Shown here one piece after another: positions 37,451 to 40,195 of a stretch of DNA of 64,000 nt (position 1 is the stretch's first letter; each line of letters begins with the position of its first letter). The position numbers were made by a program, and so were the translations under genes. The notes beneath the pieces are model-generated. The model had not been told where the DNA came from, ran no database searches, and worked only from the letters and a program-made list of their open reading frames with translations. The stretch lies in the NCBI GenBank assembly GCA_947259925.1, contig CAMYOG010000053.1, forward strand, positions 124,001 through 188,000, written 5' to 3'. The DNA is from Thermoanaerobaculia bacterium (GTDB lineage: Bacteria > Acidobacteriota > Thermoanaerobaculia > Multivoradales > JAHEKO01).

Positions 37451-38079
37451 CGGTCGAACGCTCCCGGCCTCAGGCGCCGGCGCGGCGGGGCCGCGGTCTC
37501 GACCGTGTACTCACCCCGGCGTACGAAGTAGTAGTAGCGCTTGGGGCGCTGGCCGTCGAGACCCGGCTCGGCGTCCTTCGGATAGACCCAGACCTCGACC
37601 GACTCGTGGCCGGGCCGAGCGCCGACCTCGTACTTCACCTCCTCGGGCGGCCCGTACAGGATGTGGATCGTCCCGCGGTCCGAGCGGCGCCCCTGCCGGG
37701 CGCCCTCGGCGAACTGCCGGTCGGCCTCACGGGCGCGAGTCTCGAAGATCCCCTGCGGCTGGTCGGCCGGCCAGACCGAGTCGGTCGACCGCCGGCGCGC
37801 CCAGAACTCCTCGACGAAGTTCGCGGCCTCGTCGTCGGAGGTGAGTCGCAGGTAGTCGGCGATCTCCTCGTCGCTGGCGATTCGGCCGATCGCTCCTACC
37901 AGCCAGATCGATTCCTCGGGACCGAGGAGGAAGTTCGTCAGCTCTTCCGGCGAGTGCTCTTTCTTTTTTTTCTTCTTCTGGGCCTGGAGCTCGCCCGGGA
38001 GGACGAGGACCGAGACCACGACCAACGCGCTAAGGGCGGCGCAGCAGGTCCAGAAACTCTTCACGTACCGGCCGTTCAT
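37447..38079 (-). CDS. GWxTD-domain lipoprotein-like exported protein
   Basis: 210 residues from ATG 38079; a GTG at 38064 giving MKSFWTCC... is also possible. Signal-like hydrophobic stretch about 8-33, then a lysine run after the cleavage region (QAQKKKKKK). The rest matches the GWxTD domain found in Acidobacteria and Bacteroidetes: ANFVEEFWARR, READRQFAEG and RGTIHILYGPPEEVKYE. Function of this domain is unknown. Its start overlaps folE by about 50 bp. Confidence 0.82.
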   Translation of the reverse strand: MNGRYVKSFWTCCAALSALVVVSVLVLPGELQAQKKKKKKEHSPEELTNFLLGPEESIWLVGAIGRIASDEEIADYLRLTSDDEAANFVEEFWARRRSTDSVWPADQPQGIFETRAREADRQFAEGARQGRRSDRGTIHILYGPPEEVKYEVGARPGHESVEVWVYPKDAEPGLDGQRPKRYYYFVRRGEYTVETAAPPRRRLRPGAFDR

Positions 38080-38665
38080 GGAAGACCCCTCTCAGGGCCG
38101 AGGTTACGGTAAGCGCCCCGGGCTTCTTCACCCCGCGCATCTCCACGCACAGGTGACGCGCTTCGATCACCACCATCGCCCCGCGCGGCGCGAGCTTCTC
38201 GACCAGGCAGTCGACTACCTGCTCGGTCAGCCGCTCCTGCAGCTGCGGGCGCTTGGCATAGAACTCGAGGATACGCGCGAACTTGGAGAGGCCGACAATG
38301 CGCTCACCCGGGATGTAGGCGATGTGGGCGTGACCGTAGAACGGCACCAGGTGGTGGGAGCACATCGAGTAGAACGGGATGTTCTTCTCCATCACCATGT
38401 GCGAGTACTGCTCGTCGTTCGGGAAGGTCGTCACCTCGGGCTCGGCGCCTTCGCGAAGGCCGTGGAACATCTCGAGATAGAGGTCGGCTACCCGCTCGTC
38501 CGTGCGCTCCAGGTTCGGATCGTTCAGGTCGAGGCCGAGCTCCTCGAGAATGGCGCGAACGTGCCGGGCGATACGCTCGCGCGCCTCGTCCTCGCTCTCC
38601 CCGACTGCCGGGGTTCCCTTCGCCTCGGTCTCGGTCGGTGCGACCGCTTCACTGATTCGACTCAT
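38030..38665 (-). CDS. folE: GTP cyclohydrolase I
   Basis: 211 residues. Zinc and active-site motifs: CSHHLVPFYGHAHIAYIPG, VGLSKFARI and HLCVEMRGVKKPG. First step of folate/pterin synthesis (GTP to dihydroneopterin triphosphate). The N-terminus has a 25-residue extension. Divergent from the selenoprotein gene. Confidence 0.95.
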   Translation of the reverse strand: MSRISEAVAPTETEAKGTPAVGESEDEARERIARHVRAILEELGLDLNDPNLERTDERVADLYLEMFHGLREGAEPEVTTFPNDEQYSHMVMEKNIPFYSMCSHHLVPFYGHAHIAYIPGERIVGLSKFARILEFYAKRPQLQERLTEQVVDCLVEKLAPRGAMVVIEARHLCVEMRGVKKPGALTVTSALRGVFHERPVREEFLDLLRRP

Positions 38666-38736
38666 CTACGCCTCCATGCCGTGCGCATGAAGCGCACACT
38701 CTACCGCACGCTCGGCATTCGCAGCCTCGGGTCACA

Positions 38737-38742
38737 TATAAT
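38737..38742 (+). promoter_or_regulatory. TATAAT -10 box of the selenoprotein gene
   Basis: Perfect TATAAT 18 bp before the ATG, followed by GAGG ribosome site at 38752-38755 and ATG 38761. The -35 region is weak. Confidence 0.55.
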
Positions 38743-38760
38743 CGCCGCGCCGAGGAACGA

Positions 38761-38994
38761 ATGCCTGAGATCACGATTGAATACTGCGTTGTTTGAAACT
38801 ACGAGCCCCGCGCCGCCGGTCTGGCGGACGAGCTCGAAGCCCGGTTCGGTGTCACCCCGCGGCTGATCAAGGGCCGCGACGGCGTCTTCGAAGTCAAGGT
38901 CGACGCCCAACTCATCTATTCGAAGCACGCCACCGGACGGTTTCCGGAAGCTGGCGAAGTCGAGGCCGCGGCCGAGCCGCTGCTCGCCTCCTGA
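38761..38994 (+). CDS. SelW-like Rdx-family selenoprotein (in-frame UGA = Sec12)
   Basis: 77-residue protein read from ATG 38761 to TGA 38992-38994, with one internal TGA at 38794-38796. Upstream of it the sequence is MPEITIEYCVV, then TGA, then NYEPRAAGLADELEARFG. With TGA as selenocysteine the motif becomes C-V-V-U-N-Y-x-P-R-A, which is the CxxU (or CxxC) redox motif of the SelW/SelH Rdx family; the later GVFEVKVDAQLIYSKHATGRFPE also matches that family. A SECIS-like hairpin follows the TGA and there is a GAGG ribosome site. The family is a thioredoxin-fold redox protein; substrate unknown. A premature-stop pseudogene is the alternative, but the conserved context argues against it. selA/B/C/D are not in the window. 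Confidence 0.88.
38802..38836 (+). promoter_or_regulatory. Bacterial SECIS-like hairpin
   Basis: Upper stem CCGCC (38813-38817) pairs with GGCGG (38823-38827) around the loop GGTCT (38818-38822). A lower stem CGAGC (38802-38806) pairs with GCTCG (38832-38836). The apical loop begins 22 nt after the UGA, inside the 16-37 nt range for bacterial SECIS elements, and has the conserved G in its first two positions. It would recruit SelB. Confidence 0.8.
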
Positions 38995-39007
38995 AGCGTC
39001 TTCCGGC

Positions 39008-40195
39008 TCAGGAAGATTCGACTTCCAGCTGCACGACCGTCTCCATATGGCCGGTCTGCGGGAAGAGATCGAACAGGGCGACATCGGCCATCCGATAGCG
39101 GGTGAGCAGCGTCTGGAGGTCACGGGCCAGCGCCGCCGGATGGCACGAGACGTAGGTGAGTCGGCGCGGCAGGCGGTCCAGCAGGGTCCGGCGGACGGTA
39201 GGCGTGAGGCCCGGACGCGGTGGATCGACCACCACGCGATCGACGCCCTCGGCGAGCTCGCCGACTCGCGAATCGACCGACCCGCCGACGACGTCCAGGT
39301 TTCGCGCGTGGTTCCGTCGCGCGTTGATCCGAGCGTAGCGGGCGGCCACGGTGTCACCCTCGACCGCCTGCACTCTCTGGTAGCGCTCGGCCAGCGGGAT
39401 CGCGAAGAAACCGACTCCGGCATAGAGGTCCCACGCCACCGACCCGGTCGCGCCTCCCACCACCGTCTCGACCAGGCGCTCCAGTAGGCCGACGTGCCCC
39501 TGAAAGAAGCAGCGGGCGTCGAAGGCGTAGGTGAAGTCACCGACCCGGCGGGTCACCTCGCCGTGCCCGAGGCTGTCGACGACCGGTGACGTTGTCACCG
39601 CGCCGTGGTCGCCGAGGGCGAGATCGAGCCGCTCCGGAGCACCTTCCGCGGGCAGCTGGTCAGCCAGTGCCAGCACCGCGGCTTCGAGCTCCGGCATCAG
39701 GACCCGGCAACTCTCGATCGCTACCAGCCGCCAGCTGCGGGGAGCGCGATAGCCGACCGCGTAGCCGTCCTCGTATGCTTCGATCCGGACCCGGGTGCGC
39801 AACCGATAACCGAACGGCTCGGCGGCATGCACCGCGACCTCCTCGGGTAGCTCGACGCCACCGAGTCGCCGCATCGTCTCCCGCACGGCGGCGACCTTGA
39901 GCTCGAGCTGGAGGTCGTCTTCGATGTGCTGTAGGTCGCAGCCCCCACAGCGGTCAAAGTGTGGGCAGGGCGGCTCGCGGCGGCCGGGACCGGACTCCAA
40001 CACCTCCAGGACCTCGGCGCGCAGGTAGTGGCGGCGACGGTCACACACACGCGCCCGTACCCGGTCGCCCGGCACCGAGCGCGCGACGAACACCGGCAGG
40101 CCGAAATGCCGGGCGAGGCCGTCGCCACCGGCGACCAGCTTCTCCACCCGCAGCTCGAGCTCGGTGCCCAGGGTCGGCTCCCGGGTAGAGCTCAT
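39008..40195 (-). CDS. RlmD/RumA-type RNA (uracil-C5) methyltransferase
   Basis: 395 residues: TRAM domain (LELRVEKLVAGGDGLARHFGLPVFV), Fe-S cysteines in CPHFDRCGGCDLQH plus a later Cys (ESCRV), SAM motif DLYAGVGFFAIPLAERY, and the catalytic LTYVSCHPAALARDL. The family methylates U1939 or U747 of 23S rRNA or U54 of tRNA; I cannot tell which here. Its stop is convergent with the selenoprotein gene (14 bp apart). Confidence 0.9.
   Translation of the reverse strand: MSSTREPTLGTELELRVEKLVAGGDGLARHFGLPVFVARSVPGDRVRARVCDRRRHYLRAEVLEVLESGPGRREPPCPHFDRCGGCDLQHIEDDLQLELKVAAVRETMRRLGGVELPEEVAVHAAEPFGYRLRTRVRIEAYEDGYAVGYRAPRSWRLVAIESCRVLMPELEAAVLALADQLPAEGAPERLDLALGDHGAVTTSPVVDSLGHGEVTRRVGDFTYAFDARCFFQGHVGLLERLVETVVGGATGSVAWDLYAGVGFFAIPLAERYQRVQAVEGDTVAARYARINARRNHARNLDVVGGSVDSRVGELAEGVDRVVVDPPRPGLTPTVRRTLLDRLPRRLTYVSCHPAALARDLQTLLTRYRMADVALFDLFPQTGHMETVVQLEVESS

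Follow-up and report, generated by a model that had tools for sequence, protein, structure and literature searches.

A predicted SelW-like selenoprotein gene with an in-frame UGA and a SECIS-type hairpin in a Thermoanaerobaculia bacterium

Bacterial SelW-like selenoproteins and the gene at this locus

SelW-like selenoproteins form a well-documented family in bacteria. They were reported in 2005 as the most abundant selenoprotein family in the Sargasso Sea set, with 48 genes that combine a CxxU motif with a bacterial SECIS element; their function was called unclear, with the CXXU motif suggestive of a redox role (PMC1088965). A 2006 study lists them for Geobacter sulfurreducens, Desulfotalea psychrophila and other bacteria, and finds very few or no Cys homologues of SelW-like proteins in Sec-using organisms (PMC1794560). 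More recently, an Acidobacteriota genome in which three selenoproteins were known served in a 2025 paper on a predictor (PMC12013277). The pathway that serves such genes is established in bacteria: SelA, SelD, SelB and tRNA-Sec insert selenocysteine (Sec) at a UGA that is followed by a SECIS hairpin (PMC1088965).

Here, we describe a gene at positions 38761–38994 (forward strand) of a 64,000-nucleotide stretch of a Thermoanaerobaculia genome, which we call the window. Judged by its sequence and that of its relatives, this gene almost certainly encodes a SelW-like selenoprotein of the Rdx (thioredoxin-like) family. Like the bacterial SelW-like selenoproteins described previously (PMC1088965, PMC1794560), it specifies a small Rdx protein with a CxxU motif and has a bacterial SECIS-type element directly 3′ of the UGA. 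The coding frame opens with an ATG at 38761, continues through 11 sense codons to a TGA at codon 12 (38794–38796, forward strand), which is predicted to be read as Sec, and closes with a second TGA at 38992–38994, giving 77 codons plus the stop. The 77-residue read-through translation, MPEITIEYCVVUNYEPRAAGLADELEARFGVTPRLIKGRDGVFEVKVDAQLIYSKHATGRFPEAGEVEAAAEPLLAS, has U at position 12. A GAGG ribosome-binding-like site (38752–38755, forward strand) lies 5 nt 5′ of the ATG, and a TATAAT box (38737–38742, forward strand) is a possible −10 element by its resemblance to the consensus. The original prediction had placed the ATG, GAGG, TATAAT, C-V-V and both TGAs exactly. It had also warned that a standard gene finder would miss the gene or call only a fragment, and an open reading frame (ORF) list made with the standard code indeed lacks it; ORF callers that use this code miss the gene at 38761–38994. 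A paralogue search of the same genome found no second SelW-like copy (other matches had E > 0.1).

The gene is flanked by two genes on the reverse strand. The divergent neighbor (38030–38665) is folE, encoding GTP cyclohydrolase I (Pfam GTP_cyclohydroI, E = 3.9e-66; TIGR00063, 222 bits), and the convergent neighbor (39008–40195) encodes an RlmD-type 23S rRNA (uracil-C5)-methyltransferase (TIGR00479, 243 bits, cut-off 183.55). In a comparison that leaves out locus L092, most loci from this bacterial family share the order folE, SelW-like gene, rlmD (38030–40195 of the window). It is tempting to speculate that this order reflects a functional link beyond shared ancestry, e.g., with SelW as a redox partner for the thiol chemistry of FolE, but we consider such a link quite unlikely.

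Family membership and conservation of the in-frame TGA

The read-through protein matches the Rdx family by several measures. It scores 71.6 bits with Pfam Rdx (E = 6.5e-20, cut-off 22.6) and 54.9 bits with TIGR02174 (cut-off 34.2). Scored as a whole protein against NCBIfam NF041051 (SelT/SelW/SelH family (seleno)protein), it reaches 89 bits with a cut-off of 88 (E = 1.7e-25), with residues 4–69 aligned to positions 1–67 of the 70-position profile; the same model gives 80.6 bits, under the cut-off of 88, in a six-frame search of the genome. Membership of the exact NF041051 equivalog thus appears borderline, whereas membership of the Rdx family does not. Sequence comparison also matches the protein to six solved Rdx chains, from which we infer a thioredoxin-like fold. 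Among the solved Rdx proteins, 3dex (SAV_2001) and 2oka are family members by sequence comparison, with E values of 1.5e-7 and 4.2e-7, respectively. Both have CxxC, whereas the protein described here has CxxU: its CVVU stands where Rdx proteins have CxxC. The Rdx kinship that the original prediction proposed to check is therefore borne out by Pfam Rdx, NF041051, TIGR02174 and the solved chains alike.

The in-frame TGA recurs in many other genomes. In a set of 25 close relatives plus the genome itself, 23 of the 26 genomes have the SelW-like gene, and all 23 copies, that of the present genome included, carry the TGA. Both other members of the genus are among the TGA carriers (87 and 77% identity). 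Within a phylum sample of 297 genomes, 94 have a SelW-like match, and 86 have at least one match that bears the TGA. Beyond the phylum sample, a scan of public records, limited to one genome per species, returned 13 relatives with 43–60% identity. All of them have TGA at the position of codon 12 (13/13), and all encode CxxU (13/13); the labels of these records include Acidobacteria, Myxococcota, Electrothrix, Actinomycetota and Thermomicrobiaceae. The match to the Rdx family, combined with the recurrence of TGA at codon 12 across dozens of different relatives, is far beyond chance.

Cysteine counterparts exist as well. Six phylum homologues that lack the in-frame stop were read, and each has CTQC (6/6) at the motif, as would be expected of a Sec/Cys pair with CxxU. 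Both kinds of relative that the original prediction had hoped to see, those with Cys and those with CxxU (the 13 public loci), were thus found.

This conservation bears directly on whether the TGA is simply a genuine stop, in a pseudogene or in a gene that once had Cys and was misread in sequencing, such that the protein is not made. We found no direct support for a genuine stop, although the frame of the assembly is disturbed at least once elsewhere, in selD (see below). Against it, the same TGA recurs across entire families and in further phyla, in relatives with 52–87% identity, the frame 3′ of the TGA stays conserved, and the hairpin that follows covaries. A pseudogene or a sequencing error is contradicted by the conservation of the TGA in many genomes, and we regard a genuine stop as a whole as highly improbable.

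A SECIS-type hairpin directly downstream of the UGA

A hairpin that was absent from the original prediction adds support to the reading of the UGA as Sec. The putative element occupies 38813–38827 (forward strand), with a CCGCC/GGCGG stem and a GGTCT loop at 38818–38822, and was recognized by folding, by comparison with fdhF and by covariation. In the RNA, the loop GGUCU lies at +24 from the UGA. Escherichia coli fdhF, taken from its own genome record, has an identical GGUCU loop, at +21 from its UGA rather than +24. A small apical loop with a G downstream of the UGA, a SECIS feature described previously (PMC1088965), is likewise present here. This hairpin also recurs in loci of the same bacterial family.

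The stem was examined for covariation in 26 distinct sequences with 500 shuffles; these are related sequences from a coding region, and the shuffle counts are therefore not probabilities. Stem cells are paired in 85% of cases, compared with 72.5% after shuffling, and 22 cells are changed on both sides, compared with a shuffled mean of 6.1. The covariation score of the stem is 0.363, compared with 0.137 after shuffling, and falls to 0.12 or less when the partner is slid by one to three columns. None of the 500 shuffles reaches the observed value of any of these three measures (0/500 for each). The two outer pairs of the stem are weak in the 26-sequence test. Taken together, these data suggest that compensatory changes preserve the stem, as they would in a bacterial SECIS element. 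A search of the window with Rfam returned no RNA family, and so the SECIS assignment rests on the covariation and the fdhF comparison. Two loci, from records titled Candidatus Microthrix and Actinomycetota (L024 and L030), have a post-UGA hairpin in a register different from that of the other loci.

Selenocysteine machinery and the proposed mechanism

The original prediction had made its case depend on Sec machinery in the same genome, and selA, selB, selC and selD are all present, the assembled selD with a broken frame. Contig 26 carries selA (519.8 bits), adjoined by the gene for tRNA-Sec (selC) with the anticodon UCA, and contig 57 carries selB (340.5 bits). Also on contig 26 is selD (283 bits; about 77271–78314, L015:1477–2520), which contains an in-frame TGA of its own (ACATTGGU). 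A hairpin, AGGTCC-GGG-GGACCT, lies 3′ of this TGA in both the present genome (L015:1531–1575) and a same-genus relative (L083:1531–1575), and is likely the SECIS element of selD itself.

The frame of the assembled selD changes near profile position 240. The break probably arose in assembly or as a lesion of recent origin, and an assembly error is the more likely of the two because same-genus relatives have an unbroken selD, with matches that span profile positions 1–310 (G297) and 1–308 (G298). A programmed frameshift common to the selD genes of relatives is ruled out by these unbroken matches, which include those of the same genus. If the break were real, the genome would be without selenophosphate from the selD on contig 26, a point that weighs against the Sec reading.

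Across the phylum sample, a strong selA match accompanies the TGA form in 79 of 86 TGA-bearing genomes, compared with 113 of the 211 others, an association for which the Fisher value is inflated by kinship among the genomes. The remaining 7 of the 86 are without a strong selA match, which also weighs against the Sec reading. Several of these seven are incomplete, but two (G046 and G193) are rated 99–100% complete and still combine a TGA-form SelW-like gene with the lack of a strong selA match in this sample.

The machinery also bears on whether the UGA might be read as another amino acid, through near-cognate read-through by Trp or Cys or in a recoded genome. Some bacterial lineages do recode UGA. 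Here, however, TGA also serves as the terminal stop of the same gene, the genome encodes a complete Sec system that includes a tRNA-Sec with the UCA anticodon, homologues have Cys at the same place, as in the usual Sec/Cys pair, and a SECIS-type hairpin follows the codon. General recoding of UGA is contradicted by the terminal TGA and the complete Sec system, and we consider any non-Sec reading even less probable than a genuine stop.

Four features recognized at the level of sequence, namely the gene itself, the conservation of its UGA, the SECIS-type hairpin and a full complement of Sec genes, together point to Sec insertion at codon 12. By analogy with the pathway established in bacteria, SelA and SelD would charge the UCA-bearing tRNA-Sec, and SelB would bind the SECIS hairpin just 3′ of the UGA and deliver Sec there, such that the UGA would not be read as a stop. 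Judging by the family, Cys-9 and Sec-12 may then form a redox-active CxxU pair near the start of the thioredoxin-like fold, joined as a selenenylsulfide when oxidized, and the protein may act as a small thiol oxidoreductase. The proposal that an in-frame UGA conceals a SelW/Rdx selenoprotein is thus supported by the family match, the conserved TGA, the Cys and CxxU relatives, the sel genes and the hairpin.

Compared with the bacterial SelW-like selenoproteins known previously (PMC1088965, PMC1794560), we see no structural difference; the host alone, an uncultured bacterium, is different. The gene is thus an ordinary one, from a selenoprotein family that has been documented in bacteria since 2005 or earlier, and the known biology of SelW-like proteins is unchanged by it. 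What it adds, in a bacterial lineage that has received little study, is a well-supported Sec user with a recognizable SECIS element.
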